Part shown: one piece after another, positions 9,408 to 28,122 of the stretch
Position numbering within the stretch: position 1 is the first letter of the stretch
Layout of the letters: every line of letters begins with the position of its first letter
From: a virus
DNA: 36,495 nucleotides
Virus record (IMG/VR): IMGVR_UViG_3300042154_000735
Coordinates: 1 to 36,495 of that record
Direction: 5' to 3' (one strand)
Notes under the pieces: model-generated
Seen by the model: only the letters and a program-made list of their open reading frames with translations
Databases searched by the model: none
What the model was told of the DNA's origin: nothing
Made by a program: the position numbers and the translations under genes

Positions 9408-10349
9408 GTGTTGAAGCAAAATGATAAGAATATAGTCGTATCTACCCTAACTGGCGTTTTAGGTAGTTATCTCAATCTGAAAGGAAATGAGTTAGCATTT
9501 TACTGTCCTTTCTGCAATCACCACAAACAAAAACTACAAGTTAATACGGAAACCCAAAAGTGGCATTGTTGGACTTGCAATAGTGGTGGTAAGAAATTGA
9601 CCTCATTATTAAAAAAGTTAGATGTTGATAGAAAGATTATTTCGGTTATTAGAGAGATATACGGAGATAGCAATTATAACCCACTTTTAGAGGATGCCGA
9701 TACAAAGGTGTTCATTTCCTTACCAAAAGAATTTATATCACTTAGTGAGACTCCCAAAGGGTTTAATCCAGAATATAAACATGCAATACATTACCTTACT
9801 CAAAGAGGTATTACTGAAAAGGACATAATCAAATATAACATAGGATATTGTAAAGAAGGATTATATGGACAAAGAGTAATTATACCATCATACAATTCCG
9901 ATGGTTCATTAAATTACTTCGTTTCTCGTTCGTATTATCCGGACAACAAAATGAAATACAAAAATCCTCCAATCAGTAAAAATGTGATATGTTTTGATTC
10001 TCAAGTTAATTGGAATGAACCGATTATACTTTGTGAGGGTGTATTTGATGCAATCACAATTAAAAGAAATGCAATTCCATTATTAGGTAAGTTTCCATCC
10101 AGAACATTGGTGGAGAAAATCTTTATGAGTGGAATTACTGACATTATTATTTCATTGGATAACGATGCTATCAACGAAGCACTTAAAGCAGCTGAGTATT
10201 TTAGAAAGCAAGGTATCCATGTAAAGATGATGTATATGAAAGATAAAGATGCTTCCGAAATTGGTTATGAAAAGTTTTATGAAGAACTAAAAAAAACTAA
10301 AGAATTTTCATCGGAAGAACTATTGTTAAATAAAATAAATTCATTATGA
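9408..10349 (+). CDS. DNA primase (zinc finger plus TOPRIM)
   Basis: 313 residues. It should make RNA primers for lagging-strand synthesis. The N-terminus carries a CHC2-type zinc ribbon, here Cys4: C33-P-F-C36 and C54-W-T-C57. The TOPRIM catalytic fold follows, with the acidic residue E210 in LCEGVFDA and the D251-N-D253 pair in SLDNDA. The length is near that of T4 gp61 (342 residues); no helicase domain is attached, unlike T7 gp4. No in-frame ATG exists before the zinc finger, so the start is GTG 9408 or TTG 9411. The stop overlaps the next start as ATGA, so translation of the SbcD-SbcC gene is probably coupled. No replicative helicase is seen in the window. Confidence 0.9.
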   Translation: MLKQNDKNIVVSTLTGVLGSYLNLKGNELAFYCPFCNHHKQKLQVNTETQKWHCWTCNSGGKKLTSLLKKLDVDRKIISVIREIYGDSNYNPLLEDADTKVFISLPKEFISLSETPKGFNPEYKHAIHYLTQRGITEKDIIKYNIGYCKEGLYGQRVIIPSYNSDGSLNYFVSRSYYPDNKMKYKNPPISKNVICFDSQVNWNEPIILCEGVFDAITIKRNAIPLLGKFPSRTLVEKIFMSGITDIIISLDNDAINEALKAAEYFRKQGIHVKMMYMKDKDASEIGYEKFYEELKKTKEFSSEELLLNKINSL

Positions 10350-13300
10350 GTTTAAAGAAAATTTATCATATTGCGGACGTTCATATCCGTAATGTGAAAA
10401 GACACAAAGAGTATAGACAGGTATTTGAATTGATGTTTGAGGAAATCCGTAAAAGAGGAACCGAAGATGCAATTATATATTTAGCAGGTGATATTGCACA
10501 TGCGAAGTTGGAAATGTCACCAGAATTAGTCAACGAAATAAGTTGGTTATTCAAAGAATGTGCTAAAACTTGTCCTACAATTCTTATTACCGGAAATCAC
10601 GATTGTAATATGAACAATATGGATAGAATGGATGTTCTTACTCCTATTGTAGATGCATTAGAATTGAAAAACTTTCATTACTTAAAAGATACACAAGTAT
10701 TTTCTATTGGTGGTGTTGATTTTTCAGTATTTTCAATTTTAGATAATAAAGACAATTGGATTACTGCCGATAAATTGGTTGGTAATAAAAAGATTGCATT
10801 ATTCCACGGACCTGTTGATAATTCACAAACTGATATTGGATATGTTGTAAGTAGTAGACATTTTACAACTGATATATTTGATGGTTTTGATTTAGCCTTA
10901 TTAGGTGATATTCATAAGCGTCAGGAGATGATTTCTCCAAAAGGTTGTAAGGTAGTTTATGCAGGTTCATTGGTTCAACAAAACTTTGGTGAAACATTGG
11001 GTAGACATGGTTTTTTAGCATGGGATTTGGACACAATGACTTACGAAGAAATTGACTTACAAAATGATTATGGTTATTATACAATGGATATTGACAATGG
11101 TAAAGTTCCAGTTGTAAATGATATGCCAAAACATCCTCGTTTAAGAGTGAGATTGTCAAATACCGATACTGCCGATACTAAAAAGGTAATTGCAGAAATC
11201 AAAATGAAATATGGTGTTGAGGACTTTACAATTATTAGAACGGACTCATTATCAAAGAAGAAAACAGGAGATAGACAAAATAAATTAGACTTTGAAGATA
11301 TTTCCGACATCAATTATCAAAACTCTTTAATAAATGAGTATGTAGAAAGAATGATGCCATTTGTTGATAAGAAAGATTTGGCAGAATTAGAAAATATTAA
11401 CAGAGATGTAAATAGTAGAATTGTACATGAAGATACTTTACGAAACATTATGTGGAAACCAATTAGATTTGAGTTTTCTAATATGTTTAGTTATGGTGAA
11501 GATAATAAAATTGACTTTAATAAGTTAAATGGATTGATGGGATTGTTTGCACCAAACGCACAAGGTAAGTCATCTATATTTGATGCTATTTCATTTTGTC
11601 TTTATGATAAAAGTAGTAGAGCATTTAAAGCAGCTAATATCCTAAACAATCGTAAGACTGATTTTAGATGTTATTTGAATTTCCAAGTTAATGGTGTAGA
11701 TTACTTTATTGAAAGAACTGCAAAAACAATTAACAAAGGTAAGAATGTAAAAGTTGATGTAAGCTTTTGGTATGTTGATGGTGATGAAAAGATATCTTTG
11801 AACGGAACCGAAAGGAGAGATACAAATCAAGTCATTGAACAATATGTTGGTAAGTATGAAGATTTCGTATTGACTACATTATCTTTACAAGGTAATAACT
11901 CTATATTCATTGATAAGTCACAAAGTGAAAGGAAAGACTTACTTGCTCAATTTATGGGATTAAATGTTTTTGATAAATTATACGAAACTGCAACCGAAGA
12001 TATTAAAGAAGTTTCGGTCTTAATTAAGAACTTTAAGAAAACTGATTTTACAACTGAACTTGCTGATAAAGCAAATGAGTTGAAAGATAAGAAAGGTGAA
12101 TTAAAAGAATTTGAGAAAGAATTGGCTAAGTTGAATGGTAATAAGGATGGGTTAGATGGTATTATATTGGAATTAAGTAGAAACCTTACTCCAATTGACT
12201 CTAATTTGGACTTACCTAAATTGGAAGAAAAAAGAAAGGGTTTGGGTGAAGATATTCAAAACAATACAACTTTAATTGGGACAAAAGAAACATTCATTAA
12301 AATATTAGAAGGAAAAATTGAAGAAATTTCACAATCAATAGATGAAAAGAAACAATCAAATGGTATTGATATAGAAATTGTCTATTCAAACTATCAACGA
12401 GAACAAAAATCTTTAATTGAAGCTACTAAAGTATATGACACTGCAAAAGTGTATTTAAGGGGTGCAGAAGAAAAGATTAAACATTTGGATAAACATGAAT
12501 ATGACCCAAATTGTAAATTTTGTTGTGATAACACATTTGTAAAAGATGCAATGAAGTCAAAAGAAGCATTGCCTCAATTACAAGAAATAGTTAAACAAGC
12601 AATGATTGATTGTGTTGGTATTCAACAAACCATAGATACGATGGAAGGTGTTGAGGAACAATATAATGAATTGACCGACTTAAAAATAAAACTTGGACAA
12701 TCCAAAGGTATCTTAAAAACGGCAGAGGCCGAATTGAAGGGGTTGGAAACAAAAGAAGAATTATTACAAACTCAATTAGATAAAGTTGAAGAAGATATTG
12801 AGAAGTATTTTGAAAACGAAGAAACAATTGAAAGCAATAAAGAGTTAGAAAAACAAATCAAAGAATTAGAGGTAGAGAAACATAAAATTGAGTTGGATAT
12901 TAAAGATATCAGTAAACAGATAGCTACTACAAATGGTTCTATTTCATCATTACAGACCTATATAGAGGGTATAAAGCAGAAGATGAGTGATGTTAAGGAC
13001 TTAGAAGAAAAGAACCGATTATACACCTATTATTTAGATGCTGTGAAGAGAGATGGTATTCCTTATGAGTTAATTAGTAAAGCACTTCCAGTAATTGAAA
13101 ATGAAATCAATAATATTCTTGCACAAGTTGTAGACTTTGGTGTGACAATGGAAATGGATGGTAAATCAATCAATGCAAAAATAGTTTACGAAGACCAAGA
13201 ATGGCCTTTGGAGATGTGTAGTGGTATGGAGAAGTTTGTAAGTGGATTGGCTATTAGAGTTGCACTTATTAATGTATGTAACCTACCTCGTCCAAACTTC

Positions 13301-13489
13301 TTAGTAGTGGATGAAGGATTTGGCACATTGGACGCAGACAATTTATCATCTTTATTTATGATGATGCAATATCTTAAAACACAATTTGATTTTATATGGA
13401 TGATTTCTCACTTAGAACAAATGAGAGATATCGTAGATGGATTGATTGAAATAAAAAAAGAAAATGGATTTAGTAAGATTGATTTCTAA
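10346..13489 (+). CDS. Fused SbcD-SbcC / gp47-gp46 recombination nuclease-ATPase
   Basis: 1047 residues in one uninterrupted frame. Residues 1-~345 are an Mre11/SbcD-type metallophosphoesterase: D11-V-H13, G48-D49 (LAGDIAH) and G83-N-H-D86 bind the two metals. Residues ~365-1047 are an SbcC/Rad50-type ATPase: Walker A APNAQGKSS (402-410), a long coiled coil, the zinc hook C723-K-F-C726 at its tip, a signature region near CSGMEKFVSGL, and Walker B FLVVDE with D989 and E990. T4 makes these as two proteins, gp47 and gp46, which together resect DNA ends for recombination-dependent replication; here they are one chain, fixing a 1:1 ratio. The gene is coupled to primase by an ATGA overlap. Its 3' end overlaps the convergent regulator gene by 20 bases. 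Confidence 0.95.
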   Translation: MSLKKIYHIADVHIRNVKRHKEYRQVFELMFEEIRKRGTEDAIIYLAGDIAHAKLEMSPELVNEISWLFKECAKTCPTILITGNHDCNMNNMDRMDVLTPIVDALELKNFHYLKDTQVFSIGGVDFSVFSILDNKDNWITADKLVGNKKIALFHGPVDNSQTDIGYVVSSRHFTTDIFDGFDLALLGDIHKRQEMISPKGCKVVYAGSLVQQNFGETLGRHGFLAWDLDTMTYEEIDLQNDYGYYTMDIDNGKVPVVNDMPKHPRLRVRLSNTDTADTKKVIAEIKMKYGVEDFTIIRTDSLSKKKTGDRQNKLDFEDISDINYQNSLINEYVERMMPFVDKKDLAELENINRDVNSRIVHEDTLRNIMWKPIRFEFSNMFSYGEDNKIDFNKLNGLMGLFAPNAQGKSSIFDAISFCLYDKSSRAFKAANILNNRKTDFRCYLNFQVNGVDYFIERTAKTINKGKNVKVDVSFWYVDGDEKISLNGTERRDTNQVIEQYVGKYEDFVLTTLSLQGNNSIFIDKSQSERKDLLAQFMGLNVFDKLYETATEDIKEVSVLIKNFKKTDFTTELADKANELKDKKGELKEFEKELAKLNGNKDGLDGIILELSRNLTPIDSNLDLPKLEEKRKGLGEDIQNNTTLIGTKETFIKILEGKIEEISQSIDEKKQSNGIDIEIVYSNYQREQKSLIEATKVYDTAKVYLRGAEEKIKHLDKHEYDPNCKFCCDNTFVKDAMKSKEALPQLQEIVKQAMIDCVGIQQTIDTMEGVEEQYNELTDLKIKLGQSKGILKTAEAELKGLETKEELLQTQLDKVEEDIEKYFENEETIESNKELEKQIKELEVEKHKIELDIKDISKQIATTNGSISSLQTYIEGIKQKMSDVKDLEEKNRLYTYYLDAVKRDGIPYELISKALPVIENEINNILAQVVDFGVTMEMDGKSINAKIVYEDQEWPLEMCSGMEKFVSGLAIRVALINVCNLPRPNFLVVDEGFGTLDADNLSSLFMMMQYLKTQFDFIWMISHLEQMRDIVDGLIEIKKENGFSKIDF

Positions 13490-13756: not shown

Positions 13757-16700
13757 ATGGCCATCATAAAGAAAACTTTATTTCCAAAGAATTTAGAAAA
13801 TTTTGCAGTATTAGTAAATGATACTCAAGTTGATAGTAAATATTTCAAAATAACTGAATTACCCAATACATTTACAGGAGGAAAAAATGCATTCTTAATT
13901 GCAGGTTCACAATATTTAGTTCCAGACACTAAAATACAAATTGAATTAAAGGATTCTGCAGGGAATATTATTTACCATGAACCAGGTGAAGGTTTAATTT
14001 CATCATCATTAAATGGTGAATCATTTGTTACGGAATATTATGAGGGTGTTTCCAAAGTAGTTGCAGTATATGTTTATCCTGATACTGCTTATGGCCCATG
14101 TACACTTACAATATTGGGTGAACTGAGTGAATATCAAGACGCAAATAATGTTACACTTCCTGTTCCTTTAGATTGGGAAAATAAATATAATGTAAAGTGG
14201 CAAAAACAAATTGATGTAAATCCATCTCTTGCAAATACTACTAAGATTAGATTTTATAAAAGGCCTACCGTAAGTATTACTGAATTGTTAGAACCAATTT
14301 ATAGAATAGATAGTGGTTCAAAAGTAAATTCAGGAGTAAGTCAATCATTTGCAGATATTAAGTTATCAAATTTAGAAACATTTGCAGGAGATGTAAAAAG
14401 AGTAAGAGTATTTAGAACTTCATTGGGTGACATATCCGATTATAGTTTGATACAAGATATATTGGTTGAATCAAAGGAATTATTGACCACATTTGGATTA
14501 TCAGGAAGTGTTATAGGAAATACAGGAACATTTACGGCAGAAACTCTTAAAAATTATTGGAATACCGGTTCATTAAATACACAATTATCAAATAGTAGAA
14601 TTGATAGTGGTATAAAGATGACTGGTAGTGGAGAATTAACATATACCTCATCTTTGGATATAAGAAGTACAAATACATATGAATTAAATTTAGATGCATT
14701 TTATTCTTCATCAACTTCTAGTAATTTGGGAATATATTTAAGTTATGTTTCTCAGTCCACAACATTTACAAGTAGTCTTGCAACATTGGTAGGAACACAA
14801 CCAACTAAAAATTTATTAGATACTGTAATACCATTTAAAATAAGTAGAGATTATCCATCTGCAAGTTTATATTTTTCTCAATCACAGGGAGAATGGCATT
14901 TAGGAAATATTAGTTTAAAATTATCCGAAGATACTGCATTTTCACCTGATGAGGTTTCCTTTATAACTCCAATGCCTACGGTAATTGGTAATGAAGATTT
15001 TAATTTTAAGTTTGAATTTTTTGATGTTAATAATAATTATGTACCCGTATTTGTTACACAAAGTGCAAATTTTACAGGAGGTAATTTAAATAGAGTATCA
15101 AAGACATTAACATTTGATTCCGATAGAAATGCATTTAGATTTTCTACCGGTTCAATTGGTAACCCGAGATTTCAACAAATTGCATTTACAGTTGGAAGGA
15201 CAAATTTAACAGGTTCGGTAACATACGGACGTTCAGTTTATGACTTAACGGGAAGTTATATTGATCCATCTGTTTATACTTCAGCTCCAGGCGGCCCATA
15301 CCCATATCCAGGAGAACCTACAAATCCAAATGAAAACGGATTCATTGCACATATAGATGAATTTACTGGAAGTCTTGCAAATATAACGATTGGGTCAATT
15401 ACATATACTGCATCATGTGAAGAATTACATCAACATGAAACAATTTATAGATTTGAAGATGGTGATAATGCACCTGGTGTTTTTGTAACTGCAAATACAA
15501 ATCAATTTATTTATAAGGCAACCGATTTATCATTAAACCCAACGGGACAAGTTATTACAATAGAAGCTAAACGTAAAAATTTAGCATCTGCAGACACTCC
15601 ATTAACAATAAATTCAGGAAGTGGTAAACCACCATTGACATATGTTTCTACAAATACCACAAATGGTGTAGATACTTATACAATATCTGGAATTTCATAT
15701 CCATATTCAACCGGTGAAACAATTTATTCTATATCTGGTTCTGATCAATTTGGAAATGTATTTTCAGATGCAATTAAAATAAGTCCTGTAAAAATATTAG
15801 ATGGATTATCCGTATCGTTGACAAATGATAATGCATCACTACCGGCACGTTCTACTGGATTTGTAGAGAGTGGTTCTTTTGTGTTGAGTAGTGGTTCGGT
15901 TAGTGTTAAGGTTGGTAATGAAGTTATAACACATAGTAACGGATTATCTGCAAATAATAGATTTGATGTTGTATCGGCGATAGCAACAAATGTTCAGACC
16001 GGTTCATTAAATTATTCAACAACTGATTATTTTATATCAAGATTAGACGCTGATAGTGGTTCTTTAAATTTGACTATAAGATATAAGGATGGGGCGGGTG
16101 ATACATCCGATACAACAAAATTAGTAACATATACTAAAAATAAAAGAGGTGCACCAATCTTGCAAATATCATCAACACCAAAAGACCAAACGGTAACCGC
16201 AAAATCAACAGGTGAACAAATAGATACATTTTCAAATGTAACTGTATTAGTAAAAGAAACTTATAATGGTGTTACATCAAATTTAACAATAACATCTTTA
16301 ACTGCAACGTCTTCAGATATTACAAGTATATTAACAACTCCGTCAACAGGTTTAATTACTTTAAATGGAAAAACTTTAGCAAATGGAGTAAATTCAACAA
16401 CGGTAAGTATTAGTGCAGTAGTTACGGATTCAGAAGGTATAAGTAGAACTATAACGGATACATTGGCATTGTCAAAAACTAAAAAGGCAGTTCCAAATGT
16501 GGTTATATCTGCAACTCCACAAGCACAATCAGTATTGGCGAATTCTGCAGGTGTACAAACAGCAGCACTGACAAATGTGACGGTAACCGCGTTGGAAGGT
16601 AGTACTAGTAGATTCACATCAATGGCAATAGCCTCATCTACTGGATTCTCAGCTGCACCAACGATTAATGGTAATATCCTAACAATGATAAGTGCGGTTA

Positions 16701-18856
16701 TGAATGCAGCAGAAGCTTCTGTGACATTAACTGTAACACATACCGATAGTGAGGGTACTACGGGTCAAACCCAAACAATTGTAATAAGATCAACAAAAGT
16801 AAGTGTTGGTGCAAATGGAGATCCAGGAGCAACAGGTGGAAATGGTCCTGGTGTGGTATTTAGAGGTCCGTGGAGTTCCACAACGACATATTTTGATACG
16901 GATGATTTTCCTACACGTAGAGATGCGGTTTTGTATGAAGGAGTTTATTATGCAACAAAAACAAATGCAACTACAAACTTAAATAAACAACCGAATACTC
17001 AAACTACATTTTGGGAATCTTTGGGAACCGATTCTTATTTCGTTGCTGCAGAGATTGCAATATTTAGAGAATCATTTGTAAAACAAACTATAAATGTTGG
17101 TACAAATACTTCAGGTAATGCAAACATAACTATATACGGAAATGATACCTCTCCATATATTTCAATTGGACAAGCAACTAAAGGATATGATAATTTAGGT
17201 GCTTTTATAGGTAGTAATGGTACTACTGGTAGATTATCTTTAAAATCTGCTACAAATTCATTAAAATGGGATGGTTCTACATTGGATATAACTGGAAACA
17301 TTAATATAGCCGGAGGTACTGCCGCAACTCAAATTACAGACGCTGCAGCATCTGGGTCAGTTGCATGTGCAGCTGCCCTAACTGCAAATACGGCCGCAGG
17401 TAATGCAAATACCAAAGCAATTCATGCATGTAATTGTAGTTATACTGCATTAGAAAGATCAGTAGATAGTACAGGTAAAATAACATTTGCACCAACACCT
17501 GCAGGAAATGGTTTATTTTTAAGCTCAACACATTTGGGATTTTATTGTTGTACGGCTTGGAAAACTTATATGAATAATGGAGGATGTTTTTTCCTGTCTG
17601 GTGGTGGTACAAACCAATTAACGTGGGACACTACAACATTAACAGTTGTTGGAAATATTAATATAACCGGAGGTACTGCCGCAACTCAAATTACAAATGC
17701 TGCATCATCTGGATCGGTTGCATGTGCAGCTGCATTGACTGCATTTAATTGTGGTGTACAAGGAAAAACCGATGCAAGTAATGCAAATGACAAAGCAACA
17801 CACGCGTGCAATTGTAGTTATACTGCATTATCAAGATCGGTAGATTCGGTTGGTAAAATAACATTTGCACCAACGCCTGCAGGAAATGGATTATTTTTGA
17901 GCTCAACTCATATGGGATTTTATTGTTGTACGGCTTGGAAAACTTATATGAATAGTGGAGGATGTTTTTTCTTATCTGGAGCTGGTACAAATAGTTTAAC
18001 TTGGGATACCAATAATTTAGTAATATGTGGTAATGGTGTATTTAGTGGAACGGTAACAGCTGGTGCAGGTCTAATTGGAGGTTGGAGTATTCAAAGTACA
18101 AAGCTTTGTAAAAATGGTATTGTATTTGATTCAAGCATACCAGAAATATCTTATTTAAGTGGATGTGCAAAATTTCAAATTTCTACTGGATATATAAATG
18201 ATGTGGCATCATCATCTGGTACCATTACATGTACAACATATATAGGTGATGGTGGTCAATTATGGTTAGGAGTTAGAGACGCTAGTAGTAATTTGAAAAA
18301 TTATATTAGATTTGATAATACAAGTGATTATACAAGAGCAATATTTTTTGATGATGGAACAACAACATATACCGATGAAATGGTTTGGATATATAAGCCT
18401 ACGGATTCAAATTCGGCAGCACTGAGAGTAACAGGTGGTGGTATACAGGCAAGTGTAACCGGTACTGCAAATTTTGGGCATGCTATAGTTGGTGGTGGTT
18501 CAGCAACATTTACAGGAGATGTTATTGCCAATACTTCGGATAAAAGATTAAAGACTAATATAATTAATATAGATTCACCATTAGAAAAAATATCAAAAAT
18601 TAATGGGGTATATTTTAATTGGAACGAACTGGCAAAAGAACTAAGTGATAAGAATACTGAAATAAGAGAGGTTGGATTTATTGCACAAGAAGTACAGGTG
18701 ATATTACCGGAAATAATTAAACCTGCTGCCTTTGATGTACTATTAAAGACTGGTCAAAACTATTTAACAATTCAATATGAAAAAATAGTACCTTTATTGG
18801 TAGAATCTATTAAACAATTGAAAAGAGAATTGGACGAATTAAAATGTAAAAGATAA
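13757..18856 (+). CDS. Long tail fibre with S74 intramolecular chaperone
   Basis: 1699 residues. Residues ~1-790 are strand-rich, Ser/Thr/Asn-rich fibre. Residues ~798-1015 hold two related ~113-residue Ig-like domains (ISSTPKDQTV and ISATPQAQSV mark their starts). A short collagen-like Gly-X-Y run (~1018) precedes a chitin/carbohydrate-binding-like module (GPWSSTTTYFDTDDFP ... VYYATKT ... FWESLG). Residues ~1185-1425 contain two 119-residue cysteine-rich repeats. The end (1594-1699) is a Peptidase_S74 chaperone: S1594-D-K-R-L-K1599 gives the SDxRxK Ser/Lys dyad that cuts just before the serine after trimer folding, followed by EVGFIAQEVQ and a terminal coiled coil. This is a host-recognition fibre. 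The stop shares one base with the next ATG, so the two genes are translated together. Confidence 0.9.
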   Translation: MAIIKKTLFPKNLENFAVLVNDTQVDSKYFKITELPNTFTGGKNAFLIAGSQYLVPDTKIQIELKDSAGNIIYHEPGEGLISSSLNGESFVTEYYEGVSKVVAVYVYPDTAYGPCTLTILGELSEYQDANNVTLPVPLDWENKYNVKWQKQIDVNPSLANTTKIRFYKRPTVSITELLEPIYRIDSGSKVNSGVSQSFADIKLSNLETFAGDVKRVRVFRTSLGDISDYSLIQDILVESKELLTTFGLSGSVIGNTGTFTAETLKNYWNTGSLNTQLSNSRIDSGIKMTGSGELTYTSSLDIRSTNTYELNLDAFYSSSTSSNLGIYLSYVSQSTTFTSSLATLVGTQPTKNLLDTVIPFKISRDYPSASLYFSQSQGEWHLGNISLKLSEDTAFSPDEVSFITPMPTVIGNEDFNFKFEFFDVNNNYVPVFVTQSANFTGGNLNRVSKTLTFDSDRNAFRFSTGSIGNPRFQQIAFTVGRTNLTGSVTYGRSVYDLTGSYIDPSVYTSAPGGPYPYPGEPTNPNENGFIAHIDEFTGSLANITIGSITYTASCEELHQHETIYRFEDGDNAPGVFVTANTNQFIYKATDLSLNPTGQVITIEAKRKNLASADTPLTINSGSGKPPLTYVSTNTTNGVDTYTISGISYPYSTGETIYSISGSDQFGNVFSDAIKISPVKILDGLSVSLTNDNASLPARSTGFVESGSFVLSSGSVSVKVGNEVITHSNGLSANNRFDVVSAIATNVQTGSLNYSTTDYFISRLDADSGSLNLTIRYKDGAGDTSDTTKLVTYTKNKRGAPILQISSTPKDQTVTAKSTGEQIDTFSNVTVLVKETYNGVTSNLTITSLTATSSDITSILTTPSTGLITLNGKTLANGVNSTTVSISAVVTDSEGISRTITDTLALSKTKKAVPNVVISATPQAQSVLANSAGVQTAALTNVTVTALEGSTSRFTSMAIASSTGFSAAPTINGNILTMISAVMNAAEASVTLTVTHTDSEGTTGQTQTIVIRSTKVSVGANGDPGATGGNGPGVVFRGPWSSTTTYFDTDDFPTRRDAVLYEGVYYATKTNATTNLNKQPNTQTTFWESLGTDSYFVAAEIAIFRESFVKQTINVGTNTSGNANITIYGNDTSPYISIGQATKGYDNLGAFIGSNGTTGRLSLKSATNSLKWDGSTLDITGNINIAGGTAATQITDAAASGSVACAAALTANTAAGNANTKAIHACNCSYTALERSVDSTGKITFAPTPAGNGLFLSSTHLGFYCCTAWKTYMNNGGCFFLSGGGTNQLTWDTTTLTVVGNINITGGTAATQITNAASSGSVACAAALTAFNCGVQGKTDASNANDKATHACNCSYTALSRSVDSVGKITFAPTPAGNGLFLSSTHMGFYCCTAWKTYMNSGGCFFLSGAGTNSLTWDTNNLVICGNGVFSGTVTAGAGLIGGWSIQSTKLCKNGIVFDSSIPEISYLSGCAKFQISTGYINDVASSSGTITCTTYIGDGGQLWLGVRDASSNLKNYIRFDNTSDYTRAIFFDDGTTTYTDEMVWIYKPTDSNSAALRVTGGGIQASVTGTANFGHAIVGGGSATFTGDVIANTSDKRLKTNIINIDSPLEKISKINGVYFNWNELAKELSDKNTEIREVGFIAQEVQVILPEIIKPAAFDVLLKTGQNYLTIQYEKIVPLLVESIKQLKRELDELKCKR
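13767..13777. promoter_or_regulatory. Near-match to candidate operator, inverted
   Basis: TAAAGAAAACT, 11 of 12 bases of the reverse complement of TAGTTTTCTTTA, just inside the fibre gene. It encodes KK in the fibre N-terminus, so it may be chance. Confidence 0.25.
17311..18020 (+). repeat. Two 357-bp repeats encoding a cysteine-rich fibre module
   Basis: The segment beginning CGGAGGTACTGCCGCAACTC recurs exactly 357 bases later (17311 and 17668), in frame, 119 residues per unit. Each unit encodes NCSYTAL, then SSTH, YCCTAWKTYMN and GGCFFLSG. The copies differ at scattered positions and in an indel-like region near 17380/17745, so the duplication is not brand new. Confidence 0.85.
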
Positions 18857-19548
18857 TGGCATTACCTGCATGTGGAGTGATTTGTATGTCACAGATAAAA
18901 TGTTTTTTAGGTTCTGTATCAAATTCATTGAGAGTTTATTCATGTGCTGCAAGAATGTCAACTGGACTTATTAAATTTGATATACCGGATTTAATGAGTG
19001 ATTTTTATGGACTTACTACGGATGAATATGGTGGTGTTATTCCTGGAGGTGGAGGTGGTGGAGGAGGAGGTGGTGGATGTTTGGCATATGGTACAAAGGT
19101 ATTGATGTATGATGGTTCATATAAAAATGTTGAAGATTTAATAATAGGTGATATTGTTAAAAGTATAGTTATTAGTGGTTTAGAACCTGGTTCCGAAGAG
19201 GCGTGGGTGAATTTTTTAACTAATGATTTTCAATATGAAGAAAGCTTATCTATCATTTATAATATAAAAGATGATTCATATAGTCAATATTACTTAATAA
19301 ATAATAGATTAAAAGCAACATTTGAACATCCTATTTTTGTAAAAAGAAATAGTGATTATTTATTTGTAAAAACTGAAAATTTATTGATTGGTGATTATGT
19401 ATTTAATTCTAATAATGAATTTGAAATAGTTGATTCTATTAGTATAATAGATGATGTTATAAAAACAATTAACATAAATATTGAAGAAAATGATGTTTAT
19501 TTTGGAGATAATATACTTGTACACAATTTAGCTGAAAAGCCTGAGTAA
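18856..19548 (+). CDS. Fibre-adjacent protein with C-terminal Hint (intein-like) domain
   Basis: 230 residues. Residues 1-63 are an unrecognised, cysteine-containing domain. Eleven glycines (64-74) form a linker, then a Hint domain runs from C75 to N224. Intein/Hedgehog blocks are visible: block A CLAYGTKVLMYDGSYKNVED, block B T155-F-E-H158-P, and the closing ENDVYFGDNILVHN with H223-N224. In inteins C75 would start an N-to-S acyl shift and N224 would cyclise. The residue after N224 is Leu, not Cys, Ser or Thr, so full splicing is unlikely. Self-cleavage, or transfer of the N-terminal domain to a nucleophile, fits better, as in bacterial intein-like domains. It overlaps the fibre gene by one base. 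No homing endonuclease is inserted. Confidence 0.85.
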   Translation: MALPACGVICMSQIKCFLGSVSNSLRVYSCAARMSTGLIKFDIPDLMSDFYGLTTDEYGGVIPGGGGGGGGGGGCLAYGTKVLMYDGSYKNVEDLIIGDIVKSIVISGLEPGSEEAWVNFLTNDFQYEESLSIIYNIKDDSYSQYYLINNRLKATFEHPIFVKRNSDYLFVKTENLLIGDYVFNSNNEFEIVDSISIIDDVIKTININIEENDVYFGDNILVHNLAEKPE

Positions 19549-19576: not shown

Positions 19577-20986
19577 ATGAAAAAAAAATTAGGAATATGT
19601 ATACCATACAGAAATAGAGAATCACATCTAAAGATATTATTACCACATCTTACAAAATTTCTAAATAAAAAGGGAATTCCACATCAATTTTATATTACAC
19701 ATCAAATAGATGATAAATTATTAAATAGAGGTGCATTAAAAAATATTGCAGCAAAAAATGCATTTGAAGATGGTTGTGATTATGTGGCCTTTCACGATGT
19801 TGATATGTTGCCAGAAAATGATAATTGTGATTATTCTTACCCAATAGATTATCCAATACATATTGCCACAAAACTTTCTAAATACAAATATAAATTAAAT
19901 TATGAACAATATTTTGGTGGAGTAGTGTTAATGACAAAAGAACAAGTAGAAAAAACAAACGGATATTCAAATGGTTATTGGGATTGGGGGATGGAAGATG
20001 ATGACTTATTCTGGAGATGTATATATGAAAATTTAAGTAATAGGAATTTATTTACAAAATATGAAAATATGAATTGTATAAATTTTAATGGAGAAAATTC
20101 TTACATTGAAATACCTAAAGATATTGGATTACATAATGTATTATCAAATTCTCATACAATTTCTATATTGTGTAATATTGATAGCCAATCGGAAAAATAT
20201 AAAGAATGGTTGATAGGTGATGAAAGTAGGTCATTTTTAGAACATCCAATTTTTAGACACAATTCAGTTAATAGTTATGCTGTTGGATTTAATAGTTCTA
20301 GAGCTGTATGTGCTTCCGTTAGGAATGAAAAAAATGAATTAAACTATGGTTGGATTAAACGGAATTTTAATGAATGGGTTTGGGTTACCATATCTGCAGA
20401 TGTTGAATCTGGAAAATTATATTTTTATTCTAATGATAAACTTATAAAAGTTTTAAAAAACGGAGTATTAGAAGAAAGTCATTATACCTTTACGGGTAAA
20501 TTAAAAAAATTAAATTCAAATTTTTATATTGGAAAAAATACATTAAATACAAATAAAATTGTAATTGATTTTTTAAAAGGTAAAATTGCAGGATTAAAAG
20601 TATGGGATAAATTTACGGAAAAGGAAAATATAAAAGATATTATAATAGAGAATGGTAAATCCCCATTTTTTGAATTATCTTTAAATGATACTAATTTAAA
20701 ATTTAATAATACTGAAAATACTTTAGAAAATATTGATGTATATGATAATGCAATACCATATAGAAGAGATGGTAGATTTCTTTCATTACCACATGCGGAT
20801 GAGGGATTTGTAGATGGTAAATGGGCAAAAGGAAAAACCACTGCAGTAAATGAAAAAAGATTATTTTTAGAAATGAAAAAAGAAAAATTGAATTACAAAG
20901 AAGATGGTATTAAACAATTGGAATATCAATTAGTATCAAAAGAGGCTATTTCTGAAAATTGTTTTATGTTAAATGTAAAACTTTAG
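19577..20986 (+). CDS. GT7-like glycosyltransferase interrupted by a LamG-like domain
   Basis: 469 residues. The N-terminus (LGICIPYRNRESHLKILLPHL) and the motifs FHDVDMLPE (72-80, DVD at 74-76 for metal and sugar nucleotide) and GGVVLMTKEQ...GYWDWGMEDDDL (114-144) match the beta-1,4-galactosyltransferase family (GT7). From ~168 to ~375 the sequence changes to a LamG/concanavalin-like beta sandwich (INFNGENSYIEIP near its start, KIAGLKVWDKF near its end). After it a GT7-type C-terminus resumes (RRDGRFLSLPH ... EKRLFLEMKKEKLNYKEDGI, then QLEYQLVSKE). So a sugar-binding-like domain seems inserted in the transferase. It follows the fibre genes by 28 bases; it may glycosylate a virion protein or host glycan. 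Donor and acceptor cannot be read from the sequence. Confidence 0.85.
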   Translation: MKKKLGICIPYRNRESHLKILLPHLTKFLNKKGIPHQFYITHQIDDKLLNRGALKNIAAKNAFEDGCDYVAFHDVDMLPENDNCDYSYPIDYPIHIATKLSKYKYKLNYEQYFGGVVLMTKEQVEKTNGYSNGYWDWGMEDDDLFWRCIYENLSNRNLFTKYENMNCINFNGENSYIEIPKDIGLHNVLSNSHTISILCNIDSQSEKYKEWLIGDESRSFLEHPIFRHNSVNSYAVGFNSSRAVCASVRNEKNELNYGWIKRNFNEWVWVTISADVESGKLYFYSNDKLIKVLKNGVLEESHYTFTGKLKKLNSNFYIGKNTLNTNKIVIDFLKGKIAGLKVWDKFTEKENIKDIIIENGKSPFFELSLNDTNLKFNNTENTLENIDVYDNAIPYRRDGRFLSLPHADEGFVDGKWAKGKTTAVNEKRLFLEMKKEKLNYKEDGIKQLEYQLVSKEAISENCFMLNVKL

Positions 20987-21058: not shown

Positions 21059-21067
21059 ATATTTATA
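21059..21067 (+). promoter_or_regulatory. ATATTTATA promoter-like motif
   Basis: Exact 9-mer ending 3 bases before the ATG at 21071, in an 84-base gap between genes. If it is a -10 element, the mRNA would begin at or inside the start codon. Confidence 0.5.
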
Positions 21068-21070
21068 CAT

Positions 21071-24000
21071 ATGAATTTAATAAAAGAAATAAATAAACCA
21101 AAAGTAACACAGACAATAGTGATATACGCTGGTAGATTCCAACCATTCCACAGAGGACACTATGATGCATATAAAAGAATAGTTGACGAATTTGGTTCTG
21201 CAAATGTTTACATTGCAACCTCAAACGATACATCATCTACTAAATCTCCATTTTCATTTAAAGAAAAAAAGGAGATTGCAACTAAAATGTTTGGAGTTCC
21301 TTCTTCTAAATTTGTAAAAGTAAACAATCCATATAGACCGGTAGAAATACTTTCTAAATACGATGGTAAAATTACACAATACATTGCAGCAGTTGGTGAA
21401 AAAGATGCAACAAGATTACAAGGTAAATATTTTAAACCATATAAAGGAAAAATGGGATATGGTTATGATGAAATAGGTTATACATATAATATTCCTGCAG
21501 AAACTTCTCCAATAAGTGGAACAGACGTAAGAAACGGATTGGGTAGTGGTGATAAAGAAAAAGCTAAAAAGTTTTTTCTTAAAGCATATCCAAAATTTGA
21601 TAAAGATATTTTTAAAATGATAACAACAAAGTTAAGTGAGGGATTTCCAGGAGGAATAGGTATTGGATTAAATTTACCTGGAGGTTATATAAATGGTGCA
21701 CCAACTGGTTCAGTAATGGAGTTGGTTAATAATTATGAACTAAATCCATACGACCCAATTACAGAATTACTAAATCAAGTAGTTACCGAAGAATTATTTA
21801 AAGAATTTACTAAACAATATTTTGTAGAAGAATCTGATGCAGAAAAAATGGGATTGGTTCATTTAGGTGGTGGATATTATGGAAAAGATAAAGGACAAGG
21901 AGCAACCCATAAATCTGATGGTGGTAATATAAGAGCATTAACACCCGATGAAGTAGCAGCTGAAAAACAAAAACAAATGGCAAAGGGCCCTTCGGATGCA
22001 CCTGCAAACGAACCAAAACCATCTCAACCTGGTCAACCTGTTAATAAGGGAGCAACTGTACAAGGTAAGACTGATACCGAAAAAGAAAAATCTCCAGAAA
22101 ATAAACCTGGAGAAGAAAAACAAGAAGTTCCACCTGAACAAAAATTAAGTGGAACTGAATTAAAATCTTCAGCTGAAAAGAGTGATAGTGAAAACAATGA
22201 AGAAAAAGTTAAAGAAGCTTTAGATTCTGTTAGAAAAGAATTATCAAATGAAGATAATGAAACAATTGATAAAGTAAACAACCCACAATCCGAAGAAAGA
22301 AACACAATGTTAACCAATATAAAAACAGGCATCCAAAAATTTGGTAAAGGTTTAAAACATTGGGCAGAACACAAAAAAGAAATGGTTGGTGGAACAATGG
22401 ATACGGTTAAAGCATTGGCAAATGGACAAAAAATTGGTTCTACTAAAAATAAAGAAACAGGAAAGTGGGAATATTCGGATGAAAAAAGAAAAGAACAAAT
22501 AAATCATGTAAAACATTTTGTTCTAGATGCTGGATTACTTTTAGGTTCCATGGCATTGGGTGGGGCAGGTGTAGCTGTTGCAAAATCCGTTATGGCAGGT
22601 TCTGGTATTACTGGAACAATAGGAGCAGCTGGATCTGGTGCAGCTGGTGCTTTTACACATGGTGTAGGTGGATTTGCTTCACATTTGGGTAAAGATATCG
22701 TTAAACATGCAACATTAGAAAGTATGGGATTCGGTGGAGTAACCGCGGCCGGTGGTGGTGCAGCTTTATCTACTGTAACCGGTGGATTATTTGAAATGAT
22801 AAATGAAAAAATTGATAATAATGGGTTTATTACAAATTTATTTAAAAAAGTTATTCAAAAAATGGAAACATATAAACTTTCAAATGAACAATTATTAAAA
22901 TCTATTGAAAGTTATAAGAAAAATGAACCAAAACAAAATGCTGCAGATTTATTAAAAGAAAATATTTCTGAATCAAAACAAAATTCTATAAATCATTTTG
23001 TAGAGTATGCAAGTAAAAAATTAAAATTAAAAGAACAACCAAAAATAACTTTAGTATCAGGTAGAAAATATTCGGAAGCAAAAACCAGTTTGGGTGGATA
23101 TAATCCGATGTCTAAAGAAATATATGTTGCAATTGAAGGTAGATTAACTGCAGATATTTTAAGAACTCTTGCACACGAAATGGTTCATAGAAAACAAGAT
23201 GAATTAGGATTGGTAAAAGATGAAGTTAAAGATGGTGCAACAGGTTCTCCAATAGAAAATCAAGCTCACGCAGTAGCCGGTATTTTAATGAGAAACTATG
23301 GTAAAATAAATAAACAAATCTACAACGAAGATATTAATATAGATGTTGATAAGGGTGATACTGTTTTGATGGGCAAATTCAAAAACAAAAAAGTTGTTGT
23401 AAAAGATTTAGGCAAAGACGGACATGGGATGCCAACTATAAATGGCAAAGTGGCAACTACATTTCGTTTAGGACAAAAAGGCCAAAACATATATGAAATG
23501 GGTAATAAAGATGTCCATTTCAAAAATATAATTCAACTTTACAGAGATGCAAAATTCAGAAAAAGAATCCATGCATATCTTTTTGGTAGAGCAAATATGC
23601 CAGCAAATCCAAATATGGTTGCAAGAGCACTTCGTAATATGGGATATGACGAAATAACCCAAATGGAAAAAGAATTAAATATTCAGCCAGATTTAAATGA
23701 AGTTAGTAATGTTGCAACAGCGAATACCGCAGATGTTCCGGATGGTTCATTTGTTCAAAAAGGCAAAAAAAGAAAATTAAATACCGACAAAAGTGAAGCT
23801 TGGTATAAAAATGGTGGATATACACAAACTGAATTTCCAAAAGCAGATGCAATATTTGGTGACGAAGACGCAGAACAGAGAATTGTAACATATAGTATAC
23901 AAAATCTTCCTGATGTAGATTATGTAGAAACTGAATTTATTAAAGAAGGGTTGTTAATGGAAGGCGGTGCATATGGACACATGTCACACCCGTTTGATGA

Positions 24001-25153
24001 TATGGATTTGACTTTCGGTGATTTAAAAAATATAATCACAAAAGCACTTACCGGAGAATTGGGAGTAATTAGAGAAAAAACAGATGGCCAAGCTTTGGCA
24101 ATTAGTTGGAAAAATGGTAGATTGATTGCAGCAAGAAATAAAGGACATTTACAAAACGCAGGAGCAAATGCATTGGGTATTGAAGGTATTGCATCTAAAT
24201 TTGCCGGAAGAGGTGGACTAACCGATGCATACAATTTTGCAATGAAAGATTTATCTGCAGCAATATCATCTTTATCTCAAAAACAAAGAGAAAAGATTTT
24301 TGGTGAAGGTAAAAACTTTATGAATATTGAAGTTATTTGGCCAACATCAGTAAATGTAATTCCTTACGGCCAAGCTTTATTGGTTTTTCATAATTGTATT
24401 CAATATAACGAAAATGGTGTAGCAGTAGGACAAGTAGATGGTGCAGAAAATATATTGGCGGGAATGATTAAACAAGTAAATGCCGATGTTCAATCTAAAT
24501 ATACAATACAAGGCCCTCCTATTACAAGTATACCTAAAAACGATAATTTAAGTTCTAAACAAAGTAAATATCTTTCTAAATTAAGTAAATTACAAAATGA
24601 ATTTGGATTGAAAGATTCGGACAATGTTGCAGACTATCATCAAAGTTGGTGGGATTGGTGGATTACATCAAATAGTCCAGTAAAAGTTGATAAACTTACA
24701 AAAGAATCATTAATTAGAAGATGGGCCTTTGGTGATAAATCATTTAGATTAAACACAATCTCAAATCCAGAATTACAAAAATGGGCAATTACACAAGATA
24801 AGGTAAATGTTATAAAACAACAAAAAGATAATATTAAACCATTTGAAGAATTATTCTTAGGGGTAGGTGCGGATGTTTTGGAATTTGTAAGTTCAGTATT
24901 AACTGTACATCCTGATAAAGCAATTAGGTCAATGAAAGAAAAACTAAAATCAGTTGCATCACAAGTTAGAAGTGGTGGAGACCCATCTAAAGTTCAAAAA
25001 TTGAAACAAGAATTAAGTAGATTAAATACATTGGGTGGTATTGATAAGATAGTTGCAACCGAAGGATTGGTGTTCTTTTATAATGGAAAAACATATAAAC
25101 TTACAGGTTCTTTTGCACCCTTAAATCAAATCTTAGGTATTTTTTACGAATAA
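21071..25153 (+). CDS. Giant protein: nucleotidyltransferase, HExxH peptidase-like and KxDG ligase-like domains
   Basis: 1360 residues. Residues 1-~195: a cytidylyltransferase/NMNAT-type fold with GRFQPFH27-R-G-H30 (HxGH) and I148-S-G-T-D-V-R154 (the ISxTxxR motif). Residues ~258-290: an LVHLGGGYYGK...ATHKS module, then a long Pro/Lys/Glu/Gln linker. Residues ~480-590: hydrophobic, Gly/Ala-rich, possibly membrane-active. Residues ~645-745: a putative zinc peptidase with H702-E-M-V-H706 and a possible third ligand E729 (ENQAHA). Residues ~960-1360: a covalent nucleotidyltransferase (RNA/DNA ligase-like) with K1003-T-D-G1006 (motif I), IEVIW near 1087 (III), E1331-G-L-V (IV) and K1343-L-T-G (V). 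I infer a polyprotein or virion-packaged enzyme set; substrates are unknown. No Met other than 21071 precedes the first strand. Confidence 0.8.
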   Translation: MNLIKEINKPKVTQTIVIYAGRFQPFHRGHYDAYKRIVDEFGSANVYIATSNDTSSTKSPFSFKEKKEIATKMFGVPSSKFVKVNNPYRPVEILSKYDGKITQYIAAVGEKDATRLQGKYFKPYKGKMGYGYDEIGYTYNIPAETSPISGTDVRNGLGSGDKEKAKKFFLKAYPKFDKDIFKMITTKLSEGFPGGIGIGLNLPGGYINGAPTGSVMELVNNYELNPYDPITELLNQVVTEELFKEFTKQYFVEESDAEKMGLVHLGGGYYGKDKGQGATHKSDGGNIRALTPDEVAAEKQKQMAKGPSDAPANEPKPSQPGQPVNKGATVQGKTDTEKEKSPENKPGEEKQEVPPEQKLSGTELKSSAEKSDSENNEEKVKEALDSVRKELSNEDNETIDKVNNPQSEERNTMLTNIKTGIQKFGKGLKHWAEHKKEMVGGTMDTVKALANGQKIGSTKNKETGKWEYSDEKRKEQINHVKHFVLDAGLLLGSMALGGAGVAVAKSVMAGSGITGTIGAAGSGAAGAFTHGVGGFASHLGKDIVKHATLESMGFGGVTAAGGGAALSTVTGGLFEMINEKIDNNGFITNLFKKVIQKMETYKLSNEQLLKSIESYKKNEPKQNAADLLKENISESKQNSINHFVEYASKKLKLKEQPKITLVSGRKYSEAKTSLGGYNPMSKEIYVAIEGRLTADILRTLAHEMVHRKQDELGLVKDEVKDGATGSPIENQAHAVAGILMRNYGKINKQIYNEDINIDVDKGDTVLMGKFKNKKVVVKDLGKDGHGMPTINGKVATTFRLGQKGQNIYEMGNKDVHFKNIIQLYRDAKFRKRIHAYLFGRANMPANPNMVARALRNMGYDEITQMEKELNIQPDLNEVSNVATANTADVPDGSFVQKGKKRKLNTDKSEAWYKNGGYTQTEFPKADAIFGDEDAEQRIVTYSIQNLPDVDYVETEFIKEGLLMEGGAYGHMSHPFDDMDLTFGDLKNIITKALTGELGVIREKTDGQALAISWKNGRLIAARNKGHLQNAGANALGIEGIASKFAGRGGLTDAYNFAMKDLSAAISSLSQKQREKIFGEGKNFMNIEVIWPTSVNVIPYGQALLVFHNCIQYNENGVAVGQVDGAENILAGMIKQVNADVQSKYTIQGPPITSIPKNDNLSSKQSKYLSKLSKLQNEFGLKDSDNVADYHQSWWDWWITSNSPVKVDKLTKESLIRRWAFGDKSFRLNTISNPELQKWAITQDKVNVIKQQKDNIKPFEELFLGVGADVLEFVSSVLTVHPDKAIRSMKEKLKSVASQVRSGGDPSKVQKLKQELSRLNTLGGIDKIVATEGLVFFYNGKTYKLTGSFAPLNQILGIFYE

Positions 25154-25199: not shown

Positions 25200-25868
25200 A
25201 TGGCAAAAAGAAAAAGTTTTGATGAGAAATCAAAAGGGATGCACAAATCTCGTAAACTCATCATAGACACGGTTTTTGGTAGAGCAGACAACACACAAAG
25301 AGTACATGGATATGAGGGTGAGTTTGACGAAAAAAAAGAAGTTGGTGAACGATGGACTGACAAAGAAGGAAAAGAGTGGGAACAAAAAGAAGGATTTAAA
25401 GTTGCAGTAACTCAAATGGACGATGTAAGACAATTTTTACAAAAGTTGAATACATGTTCATCGGAAGATTGTAAAACAGAATCGTATAGTAATACAGACA
25501 AAAAACTTATTCGTAAAACAGGAATGTGTATTGTTTGTCTTGCAAAGTTTGAACATGGTTTAAAAGAAGATGGAACATATCCTTTCTATGAAGATTATAA
25601 GATAACAAGAAACAAGCTTGCTTATGTTAGGGAGTTGAAAGATAGATATGAAGAAGCTTTGGGTGGTATTAAAAAACAAATGGAAATTATCACCGAAGAT
25701 GGTAGAACTGAAACTTGGACATGGGAAGTTGATATTGAAAAAGTAAAAGAAGATTTGAAAAAAGACATTGATGGTGCTTATGAGGCCATTGGATTATTAA
25801 TAGAAAGAAAAAGGTTATTAGAAGAAAAATTGGTTGAATTAAATCATCCAGAATTAATTAAAAAATAA
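25200..25868 (+). CDS. Unknown protein with Cys4 cluster; candidate small terminase
   Basis: 222 residues, hydrophilic, with a Lys-rich start (MAKRKSFDEKSKGMHKSRKL). Four cysteines, C86, C91, C110 and C113 (CSSEDC and CIVC), could bind zinc. The C-terminal ~100 residues are a helical, charged region (KLAYVRELKDRYEEALGGIKK, later GLLIERKRLLEEKLVELNHP) likely to form a coiled coil. Position two genes before the terminase large subunit, and in the same operon, makes a packaging role such as small terminase subunit possible, but no motif proves it. T4 gp16 is somewhat shorter (164 residues). The DNA before it (25157-25176) is an AT run with only a degraded copy of the promoter-like motif. Confidence 0.65.
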   Translation: MAKRKSFDEKSKGMHKSRKLIIDTVFGRADNTQRVHGYEGEFDEKKEVGERWTDKEGKEWEQKEGFKVAVTQMDDVRQFLQKLNTCSSEDCKTESYSNTDKKLIRKTGMCIVCLAKFEHGLKEDGTYPFYEDYKITRNKLAYVRELKDRYEEALGGIKKQMEIITEDGRTETWTWEVDIEKVKEDLKKDIDGAYEAIGLLIERKRLLEEKLVELNHPELIKK

Positions 25869-25873
25869 AAATT

Positions 25874-26515
25874 ATGAAAAAATTCTTAAATTTAAAAAAC
25901 ATTGCAATCGTTGCATTAATCTTATTTGTATTATTAGAATGGTTTAATCCAGGTGGAGTTATGCCAGGTAAAAAAGTTTATATAGAAGGTAAGGCATATG
26001 AAGTTATTAAACATGATATAGACACTATTGATATTGTAAAAACAAAAGTAGTAACTAAAAAAGGTGAAGACATATATCACGAAACAATTAAAGAAGTAGT
26101 AATTCCTACAATTGTAGATACTCAAGCTTTATTAAAAGATTTTTTTGCAAAAAATATTTACAAAGATACATTACAATTACCGGATAGTTTAGGAACCATT
26201 GCAATGATAGATACAATTACACAAAATAAAATATTAGGTAGAACTTTTAATGCAAGTGTTAAACAAAGAACTATTAAAGAAACTATGATTGTTAAAGAAT
26301 TACCAAAGACACAAGTATATTATGGTTTAACTGGTGGATTTAACAAAGCGGATGTGGTTTCAAACGTTGGTGCAGGATTACTTATAAAAACAAAAAAAGA
26401 CAAAATCTATAATTTAGGTATTGGTGTTTCTAATAGAGTATCCGATGGAACTAACGGAACATTATCTCCATATATTGGTGGTGGTGTTTATTGGAAGATT
26501 AAATTCAAAAAATAA
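25874..26515 (+). CDS. Membrane-anchored protein of unknown function
   Basis: 213 residues. Residues ~8-23 (LKNIAIVALILFVLLEW) form one N-terminal transmembrane helix after a short Lys-rich start, so the rest probably faces the periplasm. No lipobox cysteine is seen. The central part is Lys/Thr/Val-rich and extended (DTIDIVKTKVV, EVVIPTIVDTQAL). The last ~70 residues alternate short strands with glycines (YYGLTGGF, VGAGLLIKT, YIGGGVYWKIKF), like outer-membrane barrel hairpins. That anchor-plus-beta layout would suit a unimolecular spanin or an envelope protein, but this is a guess from shape. The stop shares its last A with the terminase ATG, so the two are translationally linked. Confidence 0.65.
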   Translation: MKKFLNLKNIAIVALILFVLLEWFNPGGVMPGKKVYIEGKAYEVIKHDIDTIDIVKTKVVTKKGEDIYHETIKEVVIPTIVDTQALLKDFFAKNIYKDTLQLPDSLGTIAMIDTITQNKILGRTFNASVKQRTIKETMIVKELPKTQVYYGLTGGFNKADVVSNVGAGLLIKTKKDKIYNLGIGVSNRVSDGTNGTLSPYIGGGVYWKIKFKK

Positions 26516-28122
26516 TGGGAGTTCAAGGGCAACCTAAGAAAACCTTAAAAGAGATAATCGCTGAAGAATATCGTAAATGTGCGTTAGACCCAATTTACTT
26601 TATGAAGAAGTATTGTGTGATTCAGCATCCGGTGAGAGGAAAAATACCCTTTCACCTTTATCCATTCCAGGAAGATTGTTTAACAGACTTTAAAGATAAT
26701 CGTTTTAACATTATTCTTAAATCCCGCCAGTTGGGTCTATCAACCTTATCTGCAGGATTTATTTTATGGAAGATGATATTCAACCAAGACTTCAATGCAT
26801 TGGTAATCGCAACGAAAGTAACCGTAGCTAAGAATCTGGTAGAGAAGGTAAGAGTCATGCATGATTTACTTCCTATTTGGTTGAGAGATGGAGGAACAGC
26901 TGCCGCAGAAGATAACAAACTTTCCCTTAAATTAAAAAATGGTTCACAAGTAAAAGCAATCGCTAGTTCTCCAGACGCAGGTCGTTCTGAAGCCCTATCC
27001 CTATTAGTTGTGGATGAGGCTGCATTTATTAGAGATATTGATGAGATTTGGTTATCAGCACAATCAACCTTATCAACGGGTGGTTCTGCAATCGTATTGT
27101 CTACTCCAAATGGTATCGGTAATTGGTTCCATAAAATGTGGGTAGATGGTGAAAGCGGCCAAAACGGATTTAATAATATCAATTTACATTGGACAGTTCA
27201 CCCAGAAAGAAATCAGGCCTGGAGAGACGAACAAACTCGTATCTTAGGAATCAAAGGGGCCGCACAGGAATGTGATTGTGACTTCGTTGGTTCGGGTGAT
27301 ACGGTATTTGATCCTGCATTGTTGACATGGTATAAAGATACATATGTTATGGAACCTGTACAAAAAAGAGGATTTGACAATAATCTTTGGGTATGGGAAC
27401 ATCCGAATTACAATAGAGCATATATGGTATGTGCGGACGTTGCACGTGGTGACGGAGCTGACTATTCTACTGCACAGGTTATAGACATTGAAGATAGTTC
27501 ACAGGTTGCGGAATATAGAGGTAAAATTGACACAAAAGATTTTGGAAACTTTTTAACTGCATTATCAACCGAATATAATAATGCACTTTTAGTAGTGGAA
27601 AACTCAAATGTAGGATGGGCATGTATACAACAAATTATTAATAGAGGTTATAGTAATTTGTTTTATATGAGTAACGATTTACAATATATAGACACCGAAA
27701 GACAGATGTCTAACAAATATTACAGAGATGAAAGACAAATGGTTGCAGGATTTTCAACAACATCCAAAACTCGCCCACTTATTATTTCTGCATTAGACAC
27801 ATATATGAATGATAAAGATATTCTAATTCGTTCAAGTAGATTAATAGATGAAATGTTTACATTTATTTGGCATAGTGGTAGAGCAGAAGCAATGAAAGGA
27901 TATAATGATGACCTTATTATGGCATTGGGAATTGGTCTTTGGGTTCGTAATACCGCATTAAGATTAAAACAAGAAGGTATAGATTTGACAAAACAAATGT
28001 TAAATTCGGCCCAAATAAATAAATACGAAGGCCTTATTTCAACGGGTCATTTATCTAAAAACCCATATGAAATGGATTTGGGTAAAGGACAAACCGAAAA
28101 CCTAACTTGGTTACTTAAGTAA
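26515..28122 (+). CDS. Terminase large subunit (gp17-like)
   Basis: 535 residues (T4 gp17 has 610). It packages DNA: an N-terminal ATPase drives translocation and a C-terminal RNase H-like nuclease cuts the concatemer. The ATPase shows KSRQLGLST (69-77) as Walker A and LLVVDEAAF with D167-E168 as Walker B. The loop lacks the usual GK[ST] lysine; a lysine sits at its start (K69), like the deviant site of lambda gpA. The nuclease acids are D308 (CADVARGDGADYS), E362 (VVENSNVG) and D465/D466 (YNDDLIMALG). It starts on the last base of the previous stop. The portal gene follows after one intervening gene, normal for T4-like head clusters. Confidence 0.97.
   Translation: MGVQGQPKKTLKEIIAEEYRKCALDPIYFMKKYCVIQHPVRGKIPFHLYPFQEDCLTDFKDNRFNIILKSRQLGLSTLSAGFILWKMIFNQDFNALVIATKVTVAKNLVEKVRVMHDLLPIWLRDGGTAAAEDNKLSLKLKNGSQVKAIASSPDAGRSEALSLLVVDEAAFIRDIDEIWLSAQSTLSTGGSAIVLSTPNGIGNWFHKMWVDGESGQNGFNNINLHWTVHPERNQAWRDEQTRILGIKGAAQECDCDFVGSGDTVFDPALLTWYKDTYVMEPVQKRGFDNNLWVWEHPNYNRAYMVCADVARGDGADYSTAQVIDIEDSSQVAEYRGKIDTKDFGNFLTALSTEYNNALLVVENSNVGWACIQQIINRGYSNLFYMSNDLQYIDTERQMSNKYYRDERQMVAGFSTTSKTRPLIISALDTYMNDKDILIRSSRLIDEMFTFIWHSGRAEAMKGYNDDLIMALGIGLWVRNTALRLKQEGIDLTKQMLNSAQINKYEGLISTGHLSKNPYEMDLGKGQTENLTWLLK

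Follow-up and report, generated by a model that had tools for sequence, protein, structure and literature searches.

Why one phage polypeptide should carry the catalytic motifs of a nucleotidyltransferase, an HExxH peptidase, and a nucleic acid ligase is the question raised by an ATG-initiated ORF at positions 21071..25153 (+) of IMG/VR record IMGVR_UViG_3300042154_000735, a 36,495-base virus sequence analyzed here in full and referred to as the window. The 1360-residue product is encoded by uncultured freshwater phages. A sequence-only reading had noted the three motif sets in one frame; codon-by-codon verification confirms their positions, each set lies inside a conserved domain, and the three domain assignments are borne out by Pfam, structural models, conservation, and a register test. 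The best reading of the sequence is a protein of the already known polyvalent type whose set of domains is new, and which probably joins two predicted activities, NAD+ supply and RNA repair.

The N-terminal domain (residues 13-190; 21107..21640, +) is a probable HIGH-superfamily nucleotidyltransferase of the NMN-adenylyltransferase (NadM/NMNAT-like) kind, harboring HxGH at H27-H30 (21149-21160, +) and ISGTDVR at residues 148-154 (21512-21532, +). The superfamily assignment follows from these HxGH and ISxTxxR motifs together with a Pfam CTP_transf_like match over residues 18-110, which at 28.7 bits exceeds the curated cut-off of 21. The domain also matches the PHROG 395 cytidyltransferase and archaeal NMN adenylyltransferase chains (E 7e-5), a specificity for NMN being suggested by this sequence match only. 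Among 78 sequences, G21, R22, Q24, H30, T151, and R154 are invariant and H27 is present in 77; Microcystis phage Mel-JY01 and one Flavobacteriales contig (L282) have GxHH in place of HxGH. GRFQPFHxGH and ISGTxxR are common to the phage domain and NadM or archaeal NMN adenylyltransferases, to which the sequence match is significant. In contrast to NadM, the phage domain has no Nudix or kinase partner, and NadV is not found in most of the phages.

The middle domain (residues 632-752; 22964..23326, +) models as a zincin-like metallopeptidase. Its HEMVH motif occupies residues 702-706 (23174-23188, +), with Glu729 (23255-23257, +) downstream, and HExxH is intact in all 66 sequences that have the domain. 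Modeled over residues 626-901 (mean pLDDT 70), the domain shows the zincin order of a helix, strands, the HExxH helix, and a next helix that carries the Glu ligand. In structural comparison, nearly all of the best 29 rows are metallopeptidase or YbeY-type folds, the best being a YbeY-type protein (Z 8.8), followed by SprT-like proteins, selecase, IrrE, and ArdC; the plain Foldseek match is weak (E 0.35). The domain has the strand core, HExxH helix, and Glu-bearing following helix of these zincins and of the YbeY-like fold, but it differs from them in its own conserved HRKQDE and GSPxEN motifs and in having no Pfam match above cut-off.

A free-standing HExxH relative is encoded by cyanophages S-SRM01 and B23. 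Flavobacterium phage immuto, an isolated phage, has both an NMNAT and an HExxH domain in the single chain of gp088, with profile matches of 1.3e-7 to the peptidase and 1e-5 to the nucleotidyltransferase. Directly after the peptidase domain lies a small GKFKNKK module (residues 756-806; 23336..23488, +), which recurs among relatives in varying position and copy number.

The C-terminal domain (residues 955-1360; 23933..25150, +) resembles the covalent nucleotidyltransferases and, among these, most of all the RNA ligases. The motifs of the superfamily occur in order: KxDG as KTDG at K1003-G1006 (K1003, 24077-24079), the motif III glutamate E1087 (24329-24331), EGxV as motif IV with EG at 1331-1332 (E1331, 25061-25063), and the motif V lysine K1343 (25097-25099), with R1022 (24134-24136) following motif I, all on the + strand. 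K1003, D1005, G1006, R1022, E1087, E1331, G1332, and K1343 are invariant in 124/124 sequences; in all, 15 of the 20 positions checked are invariant. EGxV ends in V in 121 sequences and in I in the other 3. Motif V reads KLT in 121 of the 124 and KMT in 3, its second lysine replaced by an invariant threonine. KTDG and motifs III and IV stand as first read, whereas motif V must be corrected to KLTG, with one lysine rather than two.

Pfam support, one of the checks proposed with the sequence-only reading, is obtained for the nucleotidyltransferase but not for the other two domains, which reach no family above cut-off. Neither RNA_lig_T4_1 nor RNA_ligase matches the ligase-like domain at E up to 10 in the 29 members scanned; scanned member by member against Pfam and PHROG, the ligase and peptidase domains yield no meaningful family, and profiles of the two domains find no match in a PDB sequence search. 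Structural comparison, another of the checks, leads from the peptidase model to zincins (Z up to 8.8); for the ligase model, RNA ligases and capping enzymes predominate among the rows, but with Z at most 5.6. For the latter model (pLDDT 78), Foldseek ranks RNA ligases first, at E 0.17, and much of the structural list consists of RNA ligases, tRNA ligases, capping enzymes, and DNA ligases. These matches lie mostly over model residues 57-209 at Z 3.5-5.6 and are tied with some RNA methyltransferases.

Unsupervised hhalign pairs K1003 with K99 of T4 Rnl1 and K35 of Rnl2, and E1087 with E159 of Rnl1. Column-permuted profiles reproduce the pairing of the catalytic lysine in 0/300 cases for Rnl1 and 1/300 for Rnl2, but the plain scores against the two enzymes are not above those of column shuffles (14 and 11 of 200). 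It is thus the catalytic register, not the profile score, that is the stronger sequence evidence for a likeness to RNA ligases. The domain shares motifs I, Ia, III, and IV in order with Rnl1 and Rnl2, with the catalytic lysine and the motif III glutamate in register. In contrast to both, it has approximately 240 mostly helical residues between motifs III and IV, KLT rather than KxK as motif V, an HxxHPFDD leader before motif I, no Pfam match, and a fusion to other enzymes. Because of the motif V threonine and the long III-IV insertion, it is placed in neither the Rnl1 nor the Rnl2 family.

The ligase-like domain has more than 500 matches in IMG/VR. By eye, cyanophage DUF6267 (PF19782) has similar HxxHP ... 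KxDG and EGYV ... YKL strings; as a parent family it is not supported, with no significant profile or pairwise score. A possible distant relative is gp25 of Pseudomonas phage Paride (Paride_0025; L283:2908-4248), in which EKIDG, SREGKG, EIEVL...NVIEYD, and EGYV can be seen by eye in ligase order, and which scores E 0.6 by tblastn and E 0.02 by hhalign against the single sequence. For this phage a laboratory host exists.

The stretches between the domains are as first described. A polar low-complexity linker (residues 240-470; 21788..22480, +), which starts with a GGYYGKDKG mini-module, is followed by a Gly/Ala-rich hydrophobic stretch (residues 478-590; 22502..22840, +) with a hydropathy maximum of 1.64 at residue 483. 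Relatives of about 895-981 residues lack both, which places them outside the conserved core.

The composition of that core can be read from 93 unique full-length ORFs, although the choice of retrieval queries biases this set. Both end domains are present in 88/93, the peptidase in 66/93, and all three domains in 64/93, while the ligase domain stands alone in 3/93. Eleven arrangements are found, and the middle is shuffled; one relative (L278) has the altered order peptidase-ligase-nucleotidyltransferase. A PolyA_pol/CCA head domain is inserted in L282 (1.5e-29) and L207 (2.8e-29), and other relatives have ParB_N, GNAT, DUF5661, or zinc-finger inserts. The L282 ORF (L282:835-6558, 1907 residues), from a Flavobacteriales MAG contig, adjoins terminase and portal genes and consists of a GKFKNK module, a ParB-like stretch, a CCA/poly(A) polymerase, the nucleotidyltransferase, and the ligase.

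Fusions with no match to the peptidase number 22 (8 NT-LIG and 14 NT-KF-LIG unique ORFs). Since relatives without a match to the peptidase are common, and three consist of the ligase alone, the self-cleaving polyprotein proposed in the sequence-only reading is rejected as the core function. A broader form of the proposal holds that the chain is cut by its own peptidase or by the prohead protease into separate enzymes, the fusion itself being meaningless. Linkers between the domains would suit such cutting, as would the processing role proposed for zincins in the main text of PMC5512222 and jumbo phage LR756500, in which the ligase and the nucleotidyltransferase are adjacent, separate genes; the peptidase-free fusions argue against it, and it is considered improbable.

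In the main text of Iyer et al. 2017 (PMC5512222), polyvalent proteins are described as combining disparate enzyme domains in one chain, as encoded near late genes, and as thought to be injected. They occur in phages and conjugative elements, examples being P1 DdrB and the N4 virion RNA polymerase, and the zincin is their commonest domain and is proposed to process them (PMC5512222, main text). The zincins of polyvalent proteins fall into 12 published clades. The 1360-residue protein has, by sequence and predicted fold, at least two disparate enzymatic domains in one polypeptide; its relatives draw variable architectures from a common module pool (11 arrangements, with PolyA_pol, ParB_N, GNAT, and DUF5661), and its gene lies near late virion genes. 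With polyvalent proteins it thus shares a long multi-enzyme chain, a zincin among the shuffled modules, relatives that contain ParB and GNAT domains, and virion-gene neighbors. In contrast to these, the constant core here is RNA-ligase-like plus NadM-like. The combination, for which the sequence-only reading knew of no defined function, is therefore less isolated than had been claimed in that it fits the polyvalent class, yet the main text of PMC5512222 does not discuss RNA-ligase or NadM-like domains among the members. A literature search found no report of a nucleotidyltransferase, an HExxH domain, and a ligase combined.

In the window, the ORF is preceded by genes for a tail fibre (13757-18856), a Hint-like virion protein, and a glycosyltransferase, and followed by those for a Cys-rich protein, a 213-residue protein, the large terminase, the portal, and a head protease. 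Of 94 loci that extend 4 kb or more downstream, 92 have the Cys-rich (CxxC) protein (222 residues; 25200..25868, +) directly 3′, at a median gap of 53 nt. The terminase large subunit (26515..28122, +; PHROG 2, E 4.8e-47) is found on the same strand within 6 kb in 93/94, and the portal in 85/94. The Cys-rich protein has no Pfam match; it is a candidate for the small terminase, otherwise missing, or for a partner that binds DNA.

This fixed place beside the terminase could alternatively mean that the protein takes part in assembling or filling the head. As an enzyme of packaging or head maturation, it would close nicks in the phage DNA with its ligase, either ahead of packaging or in its course, and the nucleotidyltransferase would supply NAD+. 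The position just 5′ of the Cys-rich protein and terminase (92-93/94 loci) favors this, as does the finding that no more than 3 of 15 related records contain a recognized DNA ligase, but such records may be fragments and the host ligase can serve. Moreover, both the fold comparison and the register test point to RNA ligases, and immuto, whose terminase is close, has no match to the ligase-like domain. Nick sealing is therefore judged unlikely, if ahead of the polyprotein. By terminase, the closest isolated phages are immuto (52%) and Mel-JY01 (51%). In immuto, a gene annotated cob(I)alamin adenosyltransferase (L445:13632-14633) lies near the terminase, at the place held by the ligase fusion in relatives of the window.

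The tail-fibre gene upstream, together with the annotation of T4 Rnl1 as a catalyst of tail-fibre attachment, raises a further alternative, in which the C-terminal enzyme would nucleotidylate virion or host proteins or, like T4 gp63, aid fibre attachment rather than join RNA. It has no direct support, and the same upstream tail-fibre tip is kept in none of the loci tested; it is the least probable of the readings weighed here.

A late-promoter-like octamer, TATTTATA, lies 11 nt 5′ of the start codon (21060..21067, +). Read in reverse complement, it is the T4 late element. The window holds 11 copies, of which seven fall in the 3.3% of DNA that is intergenic (binomial p 1e-8), 11-28 nt before the start codons of seven genes (1144, 5764, 8699, 13737, 21060, 28131, and 30946, +). 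Among relatives, the octamer occurs within 70 nt upstream of the start in 66/76, at -11 in 48, as compared with 28/1520 random 70-mers; here and in most relatives it ends 3 nt before the ATG. If it serves as a -10 element, the mRNA would be leaderless or nearly so. From the locus and the octamer, we infer late expression, and an enzyme cargo that is injected, as the sequence-only reading had suggested, would suit this setting among late, virion genes.

The reading tentatively preferred, at somewhat less than an even chance, is a polyvalent-type enzyme made late and carried with the DNA for NAD+ supply and RNA repair. The protein would enter the host with the DNA and could therefore act before early genes are expressed. 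Its first domain would make NAD+ from NMN and ATP; its last, charged with AMP on K1003, would seal broken RNA, most likely tRNA cut by a host defence; and the peptidase may release or trim parts of the chain or cut a host protein. In its favor are counted the domain identities, the strict conservation, the kept ends, the PolyA_pol/CCA heads as an RNA theme, the late context, and immuto gp088; counted against it are the missing Pfam ligase match, the non-significant profile scores, the single motif V lysine, and the scarcity of NadV (1/15).

Ranked second, and rather unlikely, is that the same enzymes act late inside the infected cell, supplying NAD+ and repairing RNA without ever being packaged; nick sealing ranks third. 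Published descriptions (PMC9503650, PMC7824862) place the action of phage NadM and RNA ligases inside the infected cell; none of the results demonstrates packaging, and no packaging signal was recognized. However, the structural gene position and the octamer would make expression late for a defence that strikes early.

Against host defence, phages are equipped with enzymes of NAD+ salvage and of RNA repair, CCA-adding enzymes among them (PMC7824862, PMC9503650). In 15 related records, RNA_lig_T4_1 is found in 4, RNA_ligase above cut-off in 5, and an AAA_33 kinase-type protein in 9; an NMN-making, NadV-type NAPRTase is found in one, several of the records being fragments. Because many are incomplete, absence of a companion enzyme is weak evidence. 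A canonical RNA ligase is additionally present in at least 8/15, and repair therefore need not rest on the 1360-residue protein. The two ends may work as a unit, an RNA ligase that depends on NAD+ and recycles its own cofactor. The ligase would take AMP from NAD+ and free NMN, from which, with ATP, the fused adenylyltransferase would regenerate NAD+. Such recycling would account for the end domains staying together while the middle is exchanged, but it is considered improbable.

If the preferred polyvalent-type reading is correct, an RNA-ligase-like domain and a probable NAD-making enzyme are added to the multi-enzyme proteins that phages may inject, and a single chain would link NAD+ supply with RNA repair, both of them anti-defence themes. 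K1003, H702/E703, and H27/H30 are residues by which the predicted activities can be tested.

Elsewhere in the window, between the primase and tail-fibre genes, a 1047-residue ORF (10346-13489) joins a calcineurin-like phosphoesterase to an SbcC/Rad50-like ATPase and is, by sequence, a fusion of the T4 gp47 and gp46 kinds. The 230-residue Hint-like protein (18856-19548) has poly-Gly followed by the Hint-like domain (PT-HINT 1.4e-5, just below cut-off), which begins with Cys and ends in VHN, and is possibly a self-cleaving virion protein. The glycosyltransferase (19577-20986) is of family 7, with a Laminin_G_3-like domain near residues 171-352.
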